Origin: an uncultured Acetatifactor sp.
GTDB lineage: Bacteria > Bacillota > Clostridia > Lachnospirales > Lachnospiraceae
Length of the DNA: 64,000 nucleotides
Assembly: GCA_934436435.1 (NCBI GenBank)
Contig: CAKSAN010000008.1
Location: 62,001-126,000 of the forward strand
Reading direction: 5' to 3'
In this document: piece after piece, positions 14,635 to 55,367 of the stretch
Layout: the number at the start of each line of letters is the position of its first letter
How positions within the stretch are numbered: the stretch's first letter is position 1
Position numbers and translations under genes: made by a program
The notes under the pieces: generated by a model
The model's input: only the letters and a program-made list of their open reading frames with translations
Database searches by the model: none
What the model was told of the DNA's origin: nothing

Positions 14635-15240
14635 ATGACAGAATGGGAAAAAGCGCAAAAAGGATATTTATATGATGCAAATTATGATAAGGAAATCGTA
14701 GAGGCAAGAACACGCTGTGCTGATTTATGCTACGAGTTCAATCAATGTAAACCGTCTGACGTAAAAAGGCAGCAGGAATTACTGGCCCAGATTCTGGGAA
14801 GCATCAAGGGAAATCCGGTGATCACAGCACCGTTTTATTGTGATTACGGGGTGAATGTTTCTATAGGAGAAAATTTTTATACCAATCATAATGTCACAAT
14901 ACTGGATTGTGCAAAAGTTACTTTTGGAGATAATGTATTTATTGCCCCCAACTGTGTATTTTCCACCGCAGGACATGCCATCGACAGTGAGCAAAGAGGC
15001 CGAGGACTGGAAATTGCCCTGCCGATCACGGTAGGAGACAATGTCTGGATCGGAACGAATGTGTCCGTATTGCCGGGAGTTACGATCGGAAGCAATACGA
15101 TTATCGGTGCCGGAAGCGTCGTGAATAAAGACATTCCGGAAGGCGTGATCGCAGCCGGTAATCCCTGTAGGGTAATTCGTAAAATAACGGAAGCCGATAA
15201 GAAAAAATATCCGATCTTTGGGGAGCCTGTGGAAGGTTAA
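14635..15240 (+). CDS. Maltose/galactoside O-acetyltransferase family
   Basis: A 201-residue left-handed beta-helix acetyltransferase that transfers acetyl from acetyl-CoA to sugars or similar hydroxyl groups. The N-terminal Mac domain is at residues 1-55 (TEWEKAQKGYLYDANYD). Hexapeptide repeats run from about 70 to 185 (GVNVSIGENFYTNHNVTILD; VGDNVWIGTNVSVLPGVTIG). The catalytic His lies in STAGHAID and the acetyl-CoA end is AAGNPCRVIRKI. The length is typical of LacA/Maa. Preceded by AAGGAG; the substrate cannot be told. Confidence 0.9.
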   Translation: MTEWEKAQKGYLYDANYDKEIVEARTRCADLCYEFNQCKPSDVKRQQELLAQILGSIKGNPVITAPFYCDYGVNVSIGENFYTNHNVTILDCAKVTFGDNVFIAPNCVFSTAGHAIDSEQRGRGLEIALPITVGDNVWIGTNVSVLPGVTIGSNTIIGAGSVVNKDIPEGVIAAGNPCRVIRKITEADKKKYPIFGEPVEG

Positions 15241-35290: not shown

Positions 35291-38200
35291 ATGAAAGAAC
35301 AGAACTTAGAGAATACAAAAGATACCTCCGTGTTGGAGATAGTGGGAAATCTGATCACGGAGAGACAGTTTCTGGATGTGATCTGCAGAGATTATACGTC
35401 TGTCCATTACGGAGACCTTAAGAATGACTTCGCAGAGCCGTTGAAAGTGGCTCTGAGTGCCAACGCCAGCAGAATTGACGGAATCAGATTACAGAAGAAA
35501 ATAGGCTATACGGACACGGTCAGAAGCTATTGTGAAAATTTCGTATGTGAGGACAACAGAAAAGAATTTTTGCGTGTTATGGACAGAGAATTCCTGATGA
35601 GACAGCTTTCGGAATCGGATCGATTTGTTTATCGTTACGAAAGTGTTCCCAATCTGGCAGGGCGCCGGTATTTTGAGGTGCAGATCGTACGCGTGACGGA
35701 AGACAATTTTGACGGGAAAGTTATCGTCGCTTTTCGCCATATTGATGATACTGTGACCAGGGAGCAGGAATACCGTTGGGAACTGGAGAGAATGGCCTAC
35801 ACGGATGCCCTTACCGGAATCGGAAATCGTGCGGCATTTACCAGAGAGATGGCGGCTTTTGCTGAACAGGAAAAGGCTGCCTGTGTGGTAGCGGACGTGA
35901 ACAATCTGAAGGTAGGCAACGACAGATACGGTCATGAAGAAGGGGATCGGATGATCCGGGATGCTGCGGAGTGTATCCGGGAGGTATTTCGGGAGAACGG
36001 TGTCTGCTATCGTATCGGCGGTGATGAATTCTGTGTCCTCATCCGGGAAGGCGACAGCGCCCAGATCCGGGAAAGCTTACAGCGATTGGAGCAGCTGACA
36101 GTGGAGAAGAATGCGGTCCGGAGAATGCCTCTGACCATAGCCTGTGGATATGCCCTGCGTGAGAACGCACAGGAGACCATGGAGGAATTATTCAATCGTG
36201 CGGACGAGATAATGTACGATGTGAAATTCCGCATGAAGAAAGAGTTTCCTGTCTACAGTGAGGAGAGGATCAAGAACTATCTGAACGTACTCCGGATCCT
36301 CTGCAAATCCACAGACTCTTATCTGTATCTGTGGAATATTAACAAGAATGAATGTTGGTTCTTCGGGGAAGTGGACAGGGAGTATGCCCTGCGCAAAAAG
36401 GGATCTCCCACCAATACGGTGGAGGAGATAGTGGATATCATATATCCCCCGGATCGTGCTGCATTCCAGGAGGATCTGGCACGGATCATGGCCGGGGAGA
36501 AAGATACTCACGATATGGATTACCGTTGGATGAACCGTAAGGGGGAAGAGGTCTGGATCAACTGCAGAGGCAAGGTGATCCCGGATGACAAGGGCAAACC
36601 TTTTGTTATGATCGGAAGAGTCTCAGATAAGGCCCTGCGTTACCTGTACCATCCTCTGACGAAGCTGTTCAACAAGAATAAGATGTTCATTGATCTCAAG
36701 GAGCAGATTATGCCGCAGAATACCGGCTATCTGATGCTTATGGGAATTGATAATCTGGGCAGCATCAATCTGCGCCATGGCAGAGCCTACGGCGACGATG
36801 TTATCAGGAAATGTGCACAGGTCATGGAAACCAATGAAGCCGTACAAAACGTATGGCACGTAGAAAATAACTGCTTTGCTCTGTATCTGGATGTGGGGAA
36901 AGCGGAGGAGGTACGCCGGATCTATGATAGTATTCTGACAGAACTGTCAGATGATTGCACATTGTCTGCAGGTGTGGTGGCCAACAGCAGAGAACTGTTT
37001 GGAGATGAGAACAATATCTATGCCTGTGCAGAGATGATGCTGGAGAAGGCAAAAGACATCGGTATTCAGAATATTGTATTTTTCTCACAGGAGGATCTTG
37101 CGGAGCGTCTGAAGACGATCCAGTTTATGGAAGAGATGCAGTCCAGTGTCCGGAAGAACTGTGAGGGATTTTATCTGTGTTATCAGCCGCAGATCAAGTC
37201 CGGCAACTACCATTTGTTCGGTGCGGAGGCATTGCTTCGCTATCGTTCGGATACCTGTGGGAATATTTATCCGGATGAATTTATTCCTCTGCTGGAACAG
37301 TCCAAACTGATCAAGCAGGTGGGAATGTGGACCTTGGAGACCGCTCTGCGTCAGTGTAAAAAATGGCGGGAGACGGTACCGGATTTTCACATCAGCGTGA
37401 ATTTCTCAGTGGTACAGCTGGAGGATCGGGATGTTGCGGAGAAGGTATTGCATATTCTGGAAAAAGTCGGGATTCCCGGGAATGCTTTGACCATAGAACT
37501 TACGGAATCCATACAGATCCAGAGTATTTCCCAGTTGCTGCCGATCTTCAAGAGCTGGAGGGAAGCGGGAATCGAGCTGTCCATTGATGATTTCGGTACC
37601 GGATATGCCAGCATGAGCTATCTGAAACAGCTGGATGTCAACGAGATCAAAATCGACAAGATGTTCGTCAGGGATGTAGAGGAAGCTACCTATAATTACC
37701 GACTCATCAGCAATATGATCGAGTTCGCGAAAAACAGTGGTATGCGTGTCTGCTGTGAAGGTGTGGAGGACATGCGGGAGCTTACGGTACTGGAAGGATT
37801 GTCTCCCAGTCTGTTCCAGGGATACCTGTTCTCCAAACCCTGCGAGACGGGGGACTTTGAGAAGGCCTTTATTGACAGCACCACACCGGAATATCAGGAG
37901 CGGCAGAGCTTTATCCAGAAGATCTACGGTTACAAGGAGAGCATGCACTTTATCTATTTTAATACCAAAAACATTCTCAGGGATACGGATCTGGGTCTCT
38001 GGATCATAAGGATCAACGAGGAAACCGGATATGCGGAAATGCATATTGACGAGACCATGGAACGGATCATGGGGGTTGAGAAGAAATATACCCCGCAGGA
38101 ATGCTATCATTTCTGGCACAGCAGGATCCGGGAGGATCATTGGGACTATGTGAATGAAAATGTGGAACGTATGATAGAAGCGAATGTGGTGGTACAGCTG

Positions 38201-38332
38201 CAATATCCCTGGACCCATCCGCTCTACGGAGAAGTCATGGTGCGGTGCAGCGGTCGTCGGATCGAGGACTCCGACGGTATGATCACGCTGGAAGGATACC
38301 ATAGAATCATCAGTGACATAGAAGAGAGATAA
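35291..38332 (+). CDS. PAS-GGDEF-PAS-(GGDEF-like)-EAL-PAS cyclic-di-GMP protein
   Basis: A 1013-residue cytoplasmic protein for c-di-GMP turnover. An N-terminal sensor region is followed by an intact GGDEF at residues 243-247 (CYRIGGDEFCVLI). A PAS domain comes next (MDYRWMNRKGEEVWINCRG). A second GGDEF-like domain has lost its signature (HVENNCFALYL). The EAL domain (GAEALLRY, Glu646) keeps all metal and catalytic residues (NFSVVQL, IELTES, SIDDFGTGYAS, EIKIDK, CEGVED, FQGYLFSKP). A last PAS domain ends the chain. It can probably both make and degrade c-di-GMP. The MCP-PilZ protein at 47510 is a possible reader. Confidence 0.92.
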   Translation: MKEQNLENTKDTSVLEIVGNLITERQFLDVICRDYTSVHYGDLKNDFAEPLKVALSANASRIDGIRLQKKIGYTDTVRSYCENFVCEDNRKEFLRVMDREFLMRQLSESDRFVYRYESVPNLAGRRYFEVQIVRVTEDNFDGKVIVAFRHIDDTVTREQEYRWELERMAYTDALTGIGNRAAFTREMAAFAEQEKAACVVADVNNLKVGNDRYGHEEGDRMIRDAAECIREVFRENGVCYRIGGDEFCVLIREGDSAQIRESLQRLEQLTVEKNAVRRMPLTIACGYALRENAQETMEELFNRADEIMYDVKFRMKKEFPVYSEERIKNYLNVLRILCKSTDSYLYLWNINKNECWFFGEVDREYALRKKGSPTNTVEEIVDIIYPPDRAAFQEDLARIMAGEKDTHDMDYRWMNRKGEEVWINCRGKVIPDDKGKPFVMIGRVSDKALRYLYHPLTKLFNKNKMFIDLKEQIMPQNTGYLMLMGIDNLGSINLRHGRAYGDDVIRKCAQVMETNEAVQNVWHVENNCFALYLDVGKAEEVRRIYDSILTELSDDCTLSAGVVANSRELFGDENNIYACAEMMLEKAKDIGIQNIVFFSQEDLAERLKTIQFMEEMQSSVRKNCEGFYLCYQPQIKSGNYHLFGAEALLRYRSDTCGNIYPDEFIPLLEQSKLIKQVGMWTLETALRQCKKWRETVPDFHISVNFSVVQLEDRDVAEKVLHILEKVGIPGNALTIELTESIQIQSISQLLPIFKSWREAGIELSIDDFGTGYASMSYLKQLDVNEIKIDKMFVRDVEEATYNYRLISNMIEFAKNSGMRVCCEGVEDMRELTVLEGLSPSLFQGYLFSKPCETGDFEKAFIDSTTPEYQERQSFIQKIYGYKESMHFIYFNTKNILRDTDLGLWIIRINEETGYAEMHIDETMERIMGVEKKYTPQECYHFWHSRIREDHWDYVNENVERMIEANVVVQLQYPWTHPLYGEVMVRCSGRRIEDSDGMITLEGYHRIISDIEER

Positions 38333-47509: not shown

Positions 47510-49600
47510 TTATTTCTGCAGGTTCTTTTCTACATATTCCAAGATATAGAAATTATCCTCCGGCATCTGGCAGCCCACGATGAAGAGGCCGTTATCGTCG
47601 GAACATCGGATGATACGTCCTTCCAGAACATTGTGGTTCGGGAGGGCGAAATCCTTAATAGTAACGAGGATTAAGGCATCTTTGCTCTGGGAGAAGATCT
47701 TGTCCGTTGCCAGGAAAGCAAAGCCGTTGGCACTGATATTATCCATGGTGGCCGCATATTCCTTGTCGGAATCTTTGAACTTAATGGTGCAGGCATTGTT
47801 CAGATCCATGCGGGGATACTTGCGTCGGTTGTTGATCCGGGGTCTGGTGTTAATAACAATTTTGAAGGCATGTGCACCACTCTCGGAAGCCGGGGAGATG
47901 GTTGCCTTGTCCCAACAGTACAGGATGTTGCCCGCCGTGATTTGCAACGTGCAGGGAACTGCTTCGGTGATGGTCAGTTTCTTCTGACAGGACACCAACA
48001 GTCCTTCCGGTATCTGCTCGATCAATTCTCCCAGATATTCCGTATCGTCCTGACCGACTAATTTCAGATCGATCTTCATACCGGGCTGAATATCTTCGAT
48101 ACCCATGAAACCGCCAATACCGAGATCGCACATCATGTTCTCCATGACATCTTCGATAGTATTGATATTGGTAGCGGTCTCTTCGTATTTGCTGAGCATA
48201 CGTTCACTGGTCTGGCTGGAGTGTGCAATACAGCCGGTAATGGTCTCCACGATGTTGGACACCTGTTCCATATTGGATACCAGCTGGGTATTGGAACTTT
48301 CCACTTCCTTGATGGCATTGTCCACGACTTGAATATGTTTTCCCAGCTGCGTGGAATCCGAAGTGATCTGATCTACGTTTTCTCTGGTCTGTGTTACTTT
48401 TTCCAGAGTGATCTGAATCAGTTTTAATGTCTCTTCGATGGAAGCGGTCATCTTTGCGGAAGTAGCATCCAGACGGGAGAGCGCATCCCGGATCTGCCCG
48501 GAGGAAGCATGGGTCTCAGTACTTAAGGTGCGGATCTGGTCAGCGACCACAGCGAAGCCCTTGCCGGCCTCACCGGCTCTGGCGGCTTCAATGGAAGCAT
48601 TTAAGGCTAACAGGTTGGTCTGGTTCGTGATCTTCTCGATGGTACCGGTCTCCTGTTTTACCATATTGAATTCCTGTTGGAAGTTCTTCAGGACATTTTC
48701 CAGTTCGGTGGACAGCTCAGACATGGTAGTTGCAGTATTTACCAGGCTTTTCAGATCCTCGGCACTGATGCTGGCGTGGGTTTCGGACTTTTCCACCAGA
48801 GATACCATCTCGCCGATCAGGGAAACTACATGCTCTACCTGAGCACGGATGTCTGAGGTCATTTGTGTGGAGGAAGTGGTATGATCCTGCAACATGGCAT
48901 TATTGTCGGTCAGCTCGTTCATACCCAGCATGACGATATCGGAACCGTGCTTGTTCTCGGAAGCCAGCTCTCTTACGACGGTAATGCCGTCCAGGATGGT
49001 ATTGCTGGAAGTCTTGACCTGTTCTACGGTGGTCACGACTCTGTGCAGGTCAGCCTTGATGCTGTCGGTCATGGCGCCGTCGGACTCGTTCAGATGGCGG
49101 ATGGACATGACGTAACAGATGTAGCACAGGATAATACAGGAGAGCTGCAGCTGATAGTTCTTCATATCGGAGGCACTGTTAAAGCCCAACAGGTAGCGGT
49201 AGACGGCAGCACCCACAATGATCAGGGAGTTGATGATACCGCATTTGATCATGAATTTCCGGTTCTTATACAGTACCAGTAAGCTTGTAACCGGAAGTAT
49301 GTAAGTGAAAGCGATGGGGGACTCCGTGGTGCATATGACAAAGGTATAGAAGATGCCGTAACCGATGACCAGATCGTAACGGTAGAGCTCCGTCGCCCAT
49401 CCTTTTACCCGCAGCAATACTTCGCCGAGAATCAGAGGCAGCCAGCACAATGCCACAAAGATGAGATAAGAACTGGTGGGGTATAATCCGCCGGCAGCAT
49501 CGGAACCATAGTTGGCACTGAGCAAAACCGCAAAAACGATCCAGATCTTACGGGCCTTGCGATTGGCTTTTTCTTTGAAAACATTTTCATCGTACGTCAT
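47510..49600 (-). CDS. Methyl-accepting chemotaxis protein with a C-terminal PilZ domain
   Basis: A 696-residue chemoreceptor. Six hydrophobic segments fill residues 15-170, with almost no external domain, so it senses at or within the membrane. The signalling hairpin tip is present ([43 protein letters not shown] core at residues ~310-350). A PilZ domain closes the chain: the RxxxR motif (RRKYPRMDL) and the NxSxxG motif (DNISANGF), as needed for c-di-GMP binding. It therefore links c-di-GMP to chemotactic signalling. It overlaps the esterase gene as ATGA and would be transcribed from the sigma-28 promoter at 50669 in the present orientation. Confidence 0.9.
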
Positions 49601-50517
49601 TGTGCATTTCCTCCTTTACAGTCCTCAGCAATATGCTCAAAAAAGTGAATCATATTGTGGATAACTTCCCTGCTTTCCGGAAGGTTCGGGTAAAAAACAC
49701 TGAATGCGTGGGTCAGGCGGGGATCCTTCGGAAAATTAATCAGTTTATGGGGCATCTGATGTCTGGTCAGAGCTTTTTCAAAATCCAGAGTGTATTTCTG
49801 AAGATGATCGTTGTCACTGGTGATCAGGAGGCTGGGGGGCAGGCTGGTCACAATATCCGGATGCTCCGGAGATATATAAGGGGCAAAAGCACTTTTTTTA
49901 TAATGTGTGCCATAGAGGTATCGGGGAAGAAAAAGTCCGATTTTGTCTGGGCGGTTCGTGTAAAACATACCGCTGACCAGACCCAGAGCGAGGATCTGCA
50001 GACCGGAAGGCTTTACTCCCGCAGCCTGTGCCAGAGAACTGTCTTTCTGCATGGCAATTCCGTAAGTCAACAGGCAGGCACCGCCGCTGTCGCCGCAGGC
50101 ATACACATGGGAGGGATCACCGCCGTATTCTGTCAGGTGATCCCGGATAAAGTCAAGAGCCAGATGCAGATCCGCCAGCTGGTCGTAGAAGAGGCAGTCC
50201 GGCACCAGACGGTATTCGATGCTGAACACCACATATCCCGCTTCACAGAGGAAAGCACAAAAAGGACGGTTGAATTCCTTGTTTCCCATAAGGAGACCGC
50301 CACCGTGGACGTTGATGATGACAGGGAGAGTCTCCTCGTCCCGACCCTTGGGGCGGTAGACATCCAGGCGGTGTGCGGGGACATGTTTCTTATCATAGAA
50401 GACATCTGTATGCAAAGTGACATCCGGAGGCAGGGGATATTCCCTGCCTCTGGATGCACCATCCTGTTCGAATTGTGCCCGTTGCTTATAGAACATTTCA
50501 CATATAAGGTTTTTCAT
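49597..50517 (-). CDS. HSL-type esterase/alpha-beta hydrolase
   Basis: A 306-residue soluble esterase of the hormone-sensitive-lipase group. The oxyanion motif is [10 protein letters not shown] and the nucleophile motif is [11 protein letters not shown]. The conserved acid is expected in TSDNDHL and the His in [13 protein letters not shown] (PRLTHAF). The stop overlaps the MCP start (ATGA), so the two are translationally coupled. The 5' leader runs back to the invertible segment. AGGAG precedes the ATG. The substrate and the reason for pairing with a chemoreceptor are unknown. Confidence 0.88.
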
Positions 50518-50622
50518 TCGTACTCCTGATTCTGACTGTAGATTATGAAAAAATAATTGTCGAAAAAAGTAAAATGCAGTCTTTTATAGAATAACACAGA
50601 AATGAAATGATTAAAATAGAAA

Positions 50623-50653
50623 ATGCAACATTCTGTTATGGAATGTTGCATTT
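50623..50653 (+). repeat. Left 31-bp inverted repeat (recombination site L)
   Basis: Arm ATGCAACATTC, spacer TGTTATG, then the mirrored arm GAATGTTGCAT and TT. The 31 bases are the exact reverse complement of 51375-51405. The palindromic arms extend further here (14 bp each, 50620-50654). Confidence 0.95.
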
Positions 50654-50668
50654 TGTCTCGCACTACAT

Positions 50669-50695
50669 ATTTCGGCTGTCCATGGAAAAACTTTA
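50669..50695 (-). promoter_or_regulatory. Sigma-28 (flagellar) promoter inside the invertible segment
   Basis: On the minus strand, TAAAGTTT (50695-50688) matches the sigma-28 -35 consensus at all eight positions. An 11-base spacer follows, then GCCGAAAT (50676-50669), which matches GCCGATAA at six of eight. The TAAA-N15-GCCGA form of the Bacillus SigD consensus also fits. In this orientation it reads out of the segment to the esterase and MCP-PilZ genes. Confidence 0.82.
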
Positions 50696-50759
50696 GTTTT
50701 TTTTATAAAAATCGTTACGCCGTTGCTTCTGTATCAATATAACGGTTTTCAACCGCGAA

Positions 50760-51341
50760 TCATAGCTGTATGTCACGAAATACAGCATCTTTGTCATCCT
50801 GTTCAATTCCCAGGTAATGTTTTGTGATCTGAAAAGAAGAATGATTGTAGATCTCCATCAGCAGAGCCGGAGGTGTTCCCATTTTCCATGCATGGTAGCC
50901 GAAGGTCTTCCGCAGGGAGTGGCATCGTATCACATCTTCGATCCCTACGGCCTCGGCGGCTTTGCGGACAATGCGGTAGGCCTGGTAACGGGAGAGAGGG
51001 AAAGCAGCTTTTCTGGGACTGGGAAACAGGTAATCTGCGTCAGTTGCGGAAGACTGTGTTTTTCGATAGGAACGTAATATCTTCTGAAGTTCTTTGTTGA
51101 TTAGAATTCGGGACTCTTTTCCTGTTTTTTTCTCCGTGATCAGGAGATGGGTATAAAAATGTCCGTGTTTCGAACAATAGACATCGCCCCAGGTGAGATG
51201 AAGAATGTCGTTGATGCGGAGTGCGGTGTTCAGACCGATCAGGATGATGGTGTAATTCCGGAAGTCCGGCTGTTCGACAAGGTAGTAATTTTTAAAATCA
51301 TGTAAAAGCTGCTTGCTGCGGATAGGTTGTGTTGTGCTCAT
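50760..51341 (-). CDS. Small tyrosine recombinase (FimB/FimE-like size), predicted invertase
   Basis: A 193-residue catalytic-domain-only tyrosine recombinase. The catalytic residues are Arg42 (ALRINDIL), Lys72 (EKKTGK), His141-x-x-Arg144 (HSLRKTFGYHAW), His167 (NHSSFQ) and nucleophile Tyr176 (KHYLG). The N-terminal SAM-like domain of phage integrases is lacking, as in FimB and FimE. AAGGAGG precedes the ATG, and a TATAAT (minus, 51362-51357) lies upstream with a poor -35 box that would overlap the right repeat. The gene is wholly inside the inverted repeats, so it flips with the segment. Confidence 0.9.
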   Translation of the reverse strand: MSTTQPIRSKQLLHDFKNYYLVEQPDFRNYTIILIGLNTALRINDILHLTWGDVYCSKHGHFYTHLLITEKKTGKESRILINKELQKILRSYRKTQSSATDADYLFPSPRKAAFPLSRYQAYRIVRKAAEAVGIEDVIRCHSLRKTFGYHAWKMGTPPALLMEIYNHSSFQITKHYLGIEQDDKDAVFRDIQL

Positions 51342-51374
51342 AATGGCCTCCTTGAAATTATAAATGAATTTGGG

Positions 51375-51405
51375 AAATGCAACATTCCATAACAGAATGT
51401 TGCAT
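51375..51405 (+). repeat. Right 31-bp inverted repeat (recombination site R)
   Basis: Two A then arm ATGCAACATTC, spacer CATAACA, arm GAATGTTGCAT. The spacer is the reverse complement of that in the left site, so recombination between them should invert, not delete. It lies 51 bases before csrA. Confidence 0.95.
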
Positions 51406-51456
51406 CAGTGAAAACCAGCAGGCAAGGAAGGCTGAACAGGACAAGGAGGTTATTAT

Positions 51457-51729
51457 ATGCTGCGTCTGACCGTTAGTCCGGAAGAATACCTGATGATCAA
51501 TGACAATATTAAGATCGTGTTCCTGGGAGGGACCAAGAACCATCTCCGTATCATGATCGATGCGCCGAAAGAGGTGAACATCGTGAGAAGCACGGTATTG
51601 GAAAATAAGATCACCGATCCGGAAGAGAGAGCGAAGCTTCCTAAATATTACGCGGAAGAAGAGCATCCGGAGAAGTACCGGAAGAAGTCCAATGTGATCA
51701 TTACCAGAGGGAATGCGGACAAGCACTAA
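51457..51729 (+). CDS. csrA: CsrA-family RNA-binding translational regulator
   Basis: A 90-residue CsrA protein. The first beta strand is MLRLTVSPEEYLMI, the core is IKIVFLGGTKNHLRIMIDAPKEVNIVR (with the RNA-contacting Arg near residue 45), and a ~40-residue charged C-terminal extension is longer than in most CsrA proteins. CsrA dimers bind GGA loops in leaders and block translation; in Firmicutes the main target is flagellin mRNA, countered by FliW. No fliW is near. AAGGAGG lies seven bases before the ATG. Upstream of the gene are 51 bases and then the invertible segment. I see no promoter for it in the present orientation. Confidence 0.9.
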   Translation: MLRLTVSPEEYLMINDNIKIVFLGGTKNHLRIMIDAPKEVNIVRSTVLENKITDPEERAKLPKYYAEEEHPEKYRKKSNVIITRGNADKH

Positions 51730-53507: not shown

Positions 53508-55367
53508 TTGCGCGCCATGGGCGCGCTCTAACGGGTGTAAGTCCCGAACACGCCCAGATAGTGGGAAGTGTATAGCCGAACAGCAAGGGTGTCCACCGTG
53601 AGGTGGAATCTGAAGGAAGCTGTAAGCAAATCTCCGGTCCGACGGACAGAAATCACATATAAGGCTAGGCTACGAGAGATAAGTTGGCAAAGAACAACGA
53701 AATCTAATAACTATCACTTTTGTAGTAGCAGAGTAAATGTGGCGGATATATGGAGAGAAAGAGCGAGCACCTTAAGCGTGGAGATCTCACAGAGGTTCCA
53801 TTAGCCTAGTAACAACGAACTGTGAGAAGTCAGCAGAGCCCATAGTAGTGAAGAAGTCTCTGTAATGGAGATGGAGCAAAGGGGCGAACAATCAATAAGT
53901 TTGAGTAGGTCTCGTATTGCAGAGGAGACATTCATCTGCCGTAACCAATCGGGTAAAGGGTGGTCAAATCAAGCGAGACGGAAAGGAAAGAACGCATGGA
54001 CACAAGTAGTCTAATGGAGCAGATACTATCTAGCGATAACCTCAACAGGGCATATCTGCAAGTCGTACGAAATAAAGGTGCAGAGGGAGTGGACGGAGTG
54101 AAGTACACAGAACTCAAAGAACATCTTGCAAAGAACGGCGAAAACATCAAGGAACAGTTGAGGGCGAGAAAATATAAACCTCAGCCAGTACGAAGAGTGG
54201 AGATACCAAAGCCTGATGGCGGTGTCAGAAACCTGGGAGTACCAACAGTGACAGACAGATTTGTACAACAAGCCATTGCACAGGTATTAACGCCAATCTA
54301 TGAGGAACAGTTCCATGACCACAGTTATGGATTCAGACCGAACAGATGTGCACAACAAGCAATTCTAACAGCACTTGAAATGATGAATGACGGTAATGAG
54401 TGGATTGTAGATATCGACTTGGAAAAGTTCTTTGACACAGTAAATCATGATAAGCTCATGACTATCATAGGCAGAACTATTAAAGATGGAGATGTTATCT
54501 CTATCGTAAGAAAGTACCTTGTCAGCGGAATCATGATTGATGATGAATATGAGGACTCTATCGTGGGAACACCCCAGGGAGGAAATCTCTCGCCGTTACT
54601 GGCAAACATCATGTTGAATGAACTCGATAAAGAAATGGAAAAGCGTGGGCTTAACTTTGTAAGATACGCGGACGACTGCATCATTATGGTCGGAAGTGAA
54701 ATGTCTGCCAACAGAGTCATGAGAAATATTTCACGATTCATTGAGGAGAAACTGGGGCTTAAGGTCAACATGACCAAGAGTAAGGTAGACAGACCACAAG
54801 GACTTAAATACCTTGGATTTGGATTCTACTTTGATACAAGAGCACATCAATACAAGGCGAAACCGCATGCAAAATCAGTAGCGAAATTTAAGAAGAGAAT
54901 GAAAGAGCTCACGTGCCGTAGCTGGGGCGTTAGCAACAGTTATAAAGTGATGAAACTCAATCAGCTTATCAGAGGGTGGATTAACTATTTCAAGATAGGT
55001 AGTATGAAAACACTTTGTAAAGAGATGGACGCAAGAATTCGTTGCAGACTGCGCATGTGCATTTGGAAACAATGGAAAACTCCGCAGAACCGCATAAATA
55101 ACTTGATAAAACTCGGAGTAGATAAGGATACAGCAAGGATTACAGCCTATACGGGTAATCGAATAGCATATGTTTGTCAGCGAAGAGTTATGAATTTTGC
55201 AATAAATAAAGAAAGACTAACCCGTTTTGGATTAGTTTCTATGTTAGATTACTATACTGAAAGGTGTGTTACTTGTTAAGTTGATTGAACCGCCGTGTAC
55301 CGAACGGTACGCACGGTGGTGTGAGAGGTCGGAATTTCTCATTTAAGAGAAATTCCTCCTACTCGAT
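53508..55367 (+). mobile_element. Group II intron (probably class C) with its maturase
   Basis: The 5' ribozyme part (53508-53995, about 490 bases without another gene) has the expected paired GCGCGCC/GGGCGCGC start and further hairpins. The 3' end has a domain V-like hairpin with a GAACGG turn (55290-55322) and a domain VI-like hairpin (GGAATTTCTC/GAGAAATTCC), ending in CGAT at 55367. It sits directly behind an intrinsic terminator; class C introns are known to target terminators. The exact 5' boundary is uncertain by several bases. Confidence 0.85.
53996..55279 (+). CDS. ltrA: Group II intron-encoded reverse transcriptase/maturase
   Basis: A 427-residue reverse transcriptase. The first RT block is RNKGAEGVDGVKYTEL, domain 3 has GFRPNRCAQQAI, the active site is RYADDCIIMV (YADD 224-227) and the maturase X domain follows (LNQLIRGWINYFKIG). 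No C-terminal HNH endonuclease is seen, as in class C introns. It splices and mobilises its own intron. The start at 53996 (MDTSSLMEQIL) is chosen as it fits the family and GGAAAGGAAAG lies upstream; a start at 53960 is less likely. Confidence 0.93.
   Translation: MDTSSLMEQILSSDNLNRAYLQVVRNKGAEGVDGVKYTELKEHLAKNGENIKEQLRARKYKPQPVRRVEIPKPDGGVRNLGVPTVTDRFVQQAIAQVLTPIYEEQFHDHSYGFRPNRCAQQAILTALEMMNDGNEWIVDIDLEKFFDTVNHDKLMTIIGRTIKDGDVISIVRKYLVSGIMIDDEYEDSIVGTPQGGNLSPLLANIMLNELDKEMEKRGLNFVRYADDCIIMVGSEMSANRVMRNISRFIEEKLGLKVNMTKSKVDRPQGLKYLGFGFYFDTRAHQYKAKPHAKSVAKFKKRMKELTCRSWGVSNSYKVMKLNQLIRGWINYFKIGSMKTLCKEMDARIRCRLRMCIWKQWKTPQNRINNLIKLGVDKDTARITAYTGNRIAYVCQRRVMNFAINKERLTRFGLVSMLDYYTERCVTC

Follow-up and report, generated by a model that had tools for sequence, protein, structure and literature searches.

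The locus described here lies in a 64,000-nucleotide stretch of DNA from an uncultured Acetatifactor sp. of the Lachnospiraceae (the window), and comprises a tyrosine recombinase gene and a sigma-28-like promoter enclosed by inverted repeats (Table 1). Hydrolase and MCP-PilZ genes stand to the left of the repeats and csrA and flagellin genes to the right, as the first-pass annotation of this DNA had assigned them, and Pfam matches confirm these identities. We refer to the recombination site on the hydrolase side as the far site and to that on the csrA side as the near site. In the window assembly the promoter points away from flagellin, the orientation termed OFF.

Table 1. Features of the recombinase-promoter segment and its neighbours in the window.
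Feature	Position	Strand	Remarks
MCP-signalling protein with PilZ domain	47510..49600	-	PF00015, PF07238; far-side neighbour
Alpha/beta hydrolase (esterase-like)	49597..50517	-	PF20434, PF07859; far-side neighbour
T tract outward of far site, TTTCTATTTTAATCA on minus strand	50608..50622	-	Completes predicted intrinsic terminator
Predicted invertible segment, 783 bp	50623..51405		No strand; flanked by perfect inverted repeats
Far (left) recombination site	50623..50651		Arms 50623-50633 and 50641-50651; core TGTTATG 50634-50640; perfect inverted pairing with 51377-51405
Sigma-28-like promoter, TAAAGTTT-N11-GCCGAAAT	50669..50695	-	Consensus match only; points away from csrA (OFF)
Tyrosine recombinase, 193 aa	50760..51341	-	PF00589 (Phage_integrase), E 3.9e-26; in segment, co-directional with promoter
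Near (right, csrA-side) recombination site	51377..51405		Without outward T tract; T-tail score 0.19
csrA-like gene, 90 aa	51457..51729	+	PF02599, E 2.9e-18; predicted ON-state output
Flagellin gene, 498 aa	51907..53403	+	PF00669, E 2.2e-42, and PF00700; predicted ON-state output

The arms of the inverted repeats (50623-50653 and 51375-51405) are 31 nt long, 100% complementary and separated by 721 nt; the repeat search and the PF00589 match thus bear out the original description of a complete tyrosine recombinase gene between perfect 31-bp inverted repeats. Inside each repeat lies a dyad, ATGCAACATTC-TGTTATG-GAATGTTGCAT (50623-50651 and 51377-51405), with 11-nt arms around an asymmetric 7-nt core. 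Crossover sites of tyrosine recombinases usually have this form. Because the two cores are inverted relative to each other, a tyrosine recombinase is predicted to invert the DNA between them rather than to excise it.

In a 16-member alignment of the recombinase, the positions of the R, K, HxxR, H and Y motifs, which we take to be catalytic, are invariant. The window protein scores below the curated cut-offs of the FimB/FimE-type NCBIfam models (41.8 against 221 bits for PRK09870 and 39.3 against 222 for PRK09871), and its closest matches among solved structures, by sequence, are XerA-type recombinases. Weaker relatives with 38-44% identity are present in viral contigs, where a search for the exact dyad pattern gave no matches. 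We infer that the recombinase acts on both sites of the segment that encodes it.

The putative promoter lies inside the segment on the minus strand and points outward, as first annotated; its placement just inside the left repeat also stands, with an offset of 15 nt instead of the 16 originally given. A scan of the 64-kb window with the same 12-position consensus returned a single other equally good match (11/12, at 15173-15200), which is not near the switch genes. After inversion, the end of the -10 element would stand 98 nt before the csrA ATG, in line with the distance of about 100 bases proposed earlier. Judged by its agreement with the consensus, the segment promoter is probably used by sigma-28.

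The csrA-like protein is recognized by the Pfam CsrA model and falls under the NCBIfam CsrA equivalog cut-offs (37.9 against 73 bits and 36.3 against 70.1). It is a divergent, flagellin-linked paralogue, and all six genomes examined (G001-G006) have at least one stronger CsrA match elsewhere (86.8 bits or more). Weaker CsrA-like matches (51-66 bits) also occur in these genomes, many adjacent to flagellin genes, and form a family of flagellin-linked CsrA paralogues; flagellin-family matches number 4 to 11 per genome. CsrA of B. subtilis, studied by Mukherjee et al., reportedly restrains flagellin translation, and by analogy the window CsrA may have a similar role. CsrA and flagellin would be made only in the ON orientation. 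Just 3' of flagellin, at 53592-53884 and 53960-55279 on the plus strand, the window contains a group II intron (Rfam D1-D4 matches) with its own reverse transcriptase/maturase (TIGR04416); the Rfam search of the window returned no riboswitch.

Similar segments lie beside flagellin genes in many gut Lachnospiraceae. One-genome-per-species contigs were scanned with the recombinase alignment, and the best 80 of 576 confirmed loci were taken; with additions from whole-genome searches, this first set comprised 129 loci with 110 distinct recombinases. In 95 of these 110 recombinase loci, csrA or a flagellin N-terminus is found nearby in the expected divergent direction, at the 5' side of the recombinase in 83, at the 3' side in 10 and on both sides in 2; among the 15 loci lacking such a neighbour, 4 have one flank shorter than 700 nt. 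Sigma-28-like matches scoring 11/12 or better lie downstream of the recombinase stop codon, within 500 nt and on the same strand, in 56 of 107 loci; shuffled sequences would yield 1.15, and the opposite strand has 3. Because the loci are related, P values across them overstate independence. Since the same arrangement recurs in related loci, it is not due to chance. A site pair was obtained for 79 of 111 recombinase loci of the first set; for the 32 others, the cause is in part contig ends and in part decay or other designs. Inspection by eye revealed sites and T tracts in several of these 32 (L018, L052, L062, L071 and L178), and did not reveal the full set in L003, L005, L014, L051, L181, L211 and others lacking a site pair.

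A stricter scan, which covered all fetched non-viral loci and the window, required an inverted pair of dyads sharing the same central pentamer, and a sigma-28-like sequence 5-45 nt from one of the sites. It yielded 116 distinct cassettes counting the window, nearly all beside csrA or flagellin; 113 have an internal recombinase and three small ones (181-183 bp) lack it. Promoter and internal recombinase are co-directional in 102 cassettes and divergent in 11. The end of the -10 element lies 12-35 nt from the dyad overall and 16-21 nt from it in 96/116 cassettes. Shuffled segment ends contained a promoter-like match at the allowed distance in 31 of 1,160 trials, and only one cassette has such a match at both ends. 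The recombinases of this set fall into 43 clusters at 70% identity. When genomes were drawn from the whole family, a recombinase match at E <= 1e-30 was present in 37 of 397, and cassettes were found in 12 of the 30 loci fetched from this draw (flanks of ~1.5 kb). At E <= 1e-45, matches were present in 43 of 138 genomes in the genus-level group of G002 and in 22 of 29 in that of G004.

The central pentamer is identical within the locus in 76 of 77 site pairs, a figure inflated by the preselection of these pairs at >=75% overall identity. Between loci, pentamers agree in 4.5% of 1,288 comparisons, with 47 distinct pentamers represented, and the site arms are perfect in only 13 of the 77 pairs. 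Identical cores within a locus are expected if strand exchange requires matching cores. The 116-cassette set is no test of core matching, because its filter demanded an identical pentamer.

Promoter direction could be assigned relative to csrA-flagellin in 111 one-sided cassettes, of which 109 are OFF and 2 are ON (L041 and L289/L340). Outside this count stand L076, L346 and L366, which have no csrA or flagellin nearby, and two cassettes with flagellin on both sides. One further locus, L062, was missed by the filter and is ON by eye. Thus, both orientations, which were to be sought in the assemblies of relatives, do occur, the reverse one (L041, L289/L340 and L062) being rare. An earlier way of calling the state, by recombinase direction, gave 10 'ON' loci and was dropped; of these, L056, L073, L189 and L191 are OFF, because their promoter is at the end opposite to that first assumed, and L194, L180, L075 and L014, which failed the switch filter, were counted as neither ON nor OFF. 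The excess of OFF (109:2) is far from even and could reflect switching that is slow or biased, selection, or decay of cassettes.

One ON/OFF pair consists of the ON locus L340 and the OFF locus L334, whose recombinases are 86% identical. Segment against segment, the alignment runs in a single direction (78% over 776 nt), while 212 nt of the L340 csrA flank match the opposite end of L334 in reverse (81%). A 49-nt match running beyond the site indicates that the far flank is exchanged too. Between the two loci, the segment is inverted with respect to both the csrA flank and a short conserved far flank. In the 5.6 kb fetched for L340, csrA is present but flagellin gave no match, so this locus may be a remnant. 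For the ON loci L041 and L062, we found no far-side synteny with OFF relatives. Taken together, the conserved anatomy, the matched crossover cores and the presence of both orientations among relatives support the earlier proposal of a self-contained invertible segment beside csrA-flagellin.

On the minus strand, the far site is followed by a T tract, and a terminator scan picked out a hairpin at 50654-50620 with 14 pairs, of which 4 are G-C. The T-tail score of this tract, calculated with a standard formula, is 3.61. In the predicted fold of the OFF transcript, AAAATGCAACATTC pairs with GAATGTTGCATTTT at -15.6 kcal/mol, followed by TCTATTTTAAT, whereas the ON junction would form an 11-pair hairpin (-13.5 kcal/mol) without a T tract. 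The window hairpin is GC-poor and may be leaky. The two closest relatives, L001 and L002, retain the promoter, the sites and the T tract; L002 is the locus of Lachnospiraceae bacterium GAM79, which has the same cassette.

This difference between the two sites was also examined across the cassettes. In 74 of the 79 site pairs (L008, L218, L076, L187 and L196 were left out), the number of T residues in the first 10 nt outward is greater at the far than at the near site in every pair (74/74; mean 6.77 versus 1.49), and the T-tail score is greater in 69 of 74. In the later set, the far site has the higher score in 105 of 111 cassettes (mean 3.11 versus 0.61). The six exceptions are L006, L007, L016, L040, L060 and L299; the hairpins of L006, L007 and L060, which were folded, are very stable (-29 to -32 kcal/mol). 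The asymmetry is present in 58/59 cassettes with a convergent neighbour and in 32/36 with a co-directional far gene, and the latter indicates that a convergent neighbour's terminator is not enough to explain the tract. In L041 and L062, which are ON and have flagellin downstream, the T tract likewise lies on the far side, as if it were fixed in the chromosomal flank. The far site is predicted to terminate the OFF transcript.

Beyond the far site, the gene content varies. The first far-side ORFs form 51 clusters among 65 (the window's entry being a mis-called antisense ORF), and of the 95 whose direction could be determined, 59 point towards the segment; ten examples of co-directional far-side genes include those for argininosuccinate synthase, a DinB-type polymerase and a thiamine transporter. 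The MCP gene adjoins the switch in all three members of the window's clade (the window, L001 and L002), and the hydrolase gene is present in L002, in the same orientation, and absent from L001. Among 17 usable MCP-PilZ homologues from related genomes outside the clade, none has a sigma-28-like match of at least 11/12 within 500 nt upstream, counted from the gene start; L236, with too little upstream DNA, was left out. The window also encodes a GGDEF-EAL-PAS protein (35291-38332, plus strand), 9 kb from the MCP-PilZ gene.

These observations bear on whether the segment has one output or two. The first-pass annotation had proposed a motility phase switch whose single promoter drives hydrolase-MCP-PilZ in one orientation and csrA-flagellin in the other. 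MCP genes are often sigma-28 genes, and in the window both far-side genes lie directly beyond the far site and face away from the segment, as do both genes in L002 and the MCP alone in L001. Since the MCP stays beside the switch throughout the clade, some read-through into the hydrolase-MCP genes is conceivable. However, the path from the promoter to these genes would be obstructed by the predicted terminator, which is conserved in all three species. The proposed second output is conserved only in these three loci; elsewhere the far-side genes are unconserved and more often face the segment, and the MCP homologues lack a sigma-28-like promoter. We therefore regard a two-output switch in the window as unlikely, and we reject it as the general design, given the predicted terminator at the far site, the lack of relationship among far-side genes and the absence of sigma-28-like promoters from the MCP homologues. 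Of the original motility switch, the predicted csrA-flagellin half is retained, and the chemoreceptor/c-di-GMP half is not, since a predicted terminator intervenes. Two-output forms do probably exist among relatives: L008 (6796-7556) and L218 (1059-2124) have flagellin on each side and are candidate flagellin-to-flagellin exchangers sharing one promoter. L008 has a T tract at neither site (T-tail scores 0.90 and 1.03), and the case for L218 is weaker, because one of its sites has a fair T tail (2.58; the other 1.32). Both may be true two-output switches.

A cassette that once flipped and is now effectively fixed in OFF, with flagella built from other flagellin genes, would account for the 109/111 cassettes in OFF, and one silent copy is perhaps tolerated in genomes with as many flagellin-family matches as the six examined. 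Against such decay stand the perfect sites and the intact recombinase, csrA and flagellin frames of the window, the retention of promoter, sites and T tract in L001 and L002, and cores that match within a locus yet differ between loci; we consider it unlikely. It is also conceivable that there is no switch at all, and that a small mobile integron- or integrase-like element came to lie by chance beside flagellin with a fortuitous promoter. The XerA-type nearest structures and the weaker-identity relatives in viral contigs would fit this idea, but the site pairs are inverted and not direct, csrA or flagellin accompanies the recombinase in 95/110 loci with a tightly kept promoter spacing, and the L340/L334 pair in ON and OFF disfavours it further, which makes a mobile element very improbable.

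We consider it likely that the segment is an ON/OFF phase switch with csrA-flagellin as its single output. In this mechanism, the recombinase would recombine the two sites and so flip the segment. In ON, sigma-28 RNA polymerase would start about 90 nt before csrA, and the transcript would pass the near site, where no T tract follows the hairpin, before continuing into csrA-flagellin. In OFF, the same promoter would fire into the far site, where an A tract carried at the segment's promoter end would pair with the chromosome-fixed T tract and complete an intrinsic terminator; the transcript would stop after about 50 nt, leaving the neighbours insulated. The far recombination site would thereby serve as a crossover site in DNA and as the OFF-state terminator in RNA.

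By the features tested, the window switch is outside the types represented by four known systems. It resembles the Salmonella Hin/H2 switch, as portrayed in passages of PMC2784873, in having the recombinase gene inside the invertible segment and in controlling flagellin by promoter orientation. As hin sits within its own segment according to the same passages, placing the recombinase within the DNA that flips is not new, contrary to the earlier suggestion. The Salmonella enzyme is a serine recombinase in the account given in part of PMC11868660, whereas that of the window is a tyrosine recombinase (PF00589), and the window differs further from Hin in its sigma-28-like promoter, the presence of csrA in the output and the predicted terminator facing the OFF promoter. 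Escherichia coli fimS, with FimB/FimE, is similar in having a small tyrosine recombinase of similar length and a promoter between inverted repeats that is turned ON or OFF; in the sections of PMC2784873 dealing with it, FimB/FimE are encoded beside the segment, unlike the window recombinase, and a phase-variable terminator is Rho-dependent and acts on the fimE recombinase transcript. Clostridioides difficile cwpV/RecV offers a DNA inversion in Clostridia, mostly OFF and with a proposed intrinsic terminator in the OFF transcript, but there the promoter is not part of the inverted region and the RecV gene lies elsewhere (portions of PMC2784873), whereas here promoter-like sequence and recombinase would flip together and the predicted terminator faces a non-flagellin neighbour. 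The C. difficile flg switch combines flagellar phase variation, a tyrosine recombinase and terminated OFF transcripts; in contrast to the window, it acts on the leader of the early flgB operon via Rho and its recombinase lies outside the segment (portions of PMC7446863).

For Eubacterium and Roseburia, members of the same bacterial group, most flagellin genes have been assigned predicted sigma-28 promoters and csrA has been placed at a motility locus, as stated in parts of PMC3720852. The words recombinase, integrase and phase variation are absent from the main text of that paper, in which we found no invertible segment described. Searches of the CC-licensed PMC literature returned no account of a flagellin promoter that inverts in Lachnospiraceae; individual cases may be listed in genome-wide inversion surveys. 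Lachnospiraceae are major flagellated gut commensals, and their flagellins are strong immune antigens. If the proposed switch is real, a heritable, reversible and mostly OFF control of flagellin would provide a genetic cause for silent or patchy flagellin in the gut. It would also exemplify a compact design rule, in which a recombination site doubles as the OFF-state terminator and a promoter can flip without disturbing its neighbour. Orientation can be counted in existing long-read metagenomes.

Whether such phase variation of flagellin extends across gut Lachnospiraceae, with a dual-job far site, OFF as the default, satellites worked in trans and flagellin exchangers arising by terminator loss, we judge to be an evenly balanced question. 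Under this broader scheme, the far site would terminate only when the promoter faces it, some genomes would have more than one copy, or small satellites lacking a recombinase next to other csrA-flagellin genes, and loss of the terminator on both sides would, in a few loci, produce a flagellin-to-flagellin exchanger.

The three small promoter segments without an internal recombinase (L258:690-872, L070:4730-4912 and L064:6375-6555) lie beside csrA-flagellin and have matched sites. A recombinase of the same family is encoded near but outside the segment in L064 and L070, and none is found within 3.5 kb in L258, which suggests that these segments are worked in trans. L258 and L070 come from a single genome, G004, which also carries a full cassette. 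A second architecture, with the promoter at the 5' side of the recombinase and divergent from it, was observed in L056, L073, L189, L191, L005 and L289, and further in L334, L338, L344, L346 and L349; the sites of those inspected have the form GGTAACACAAT.
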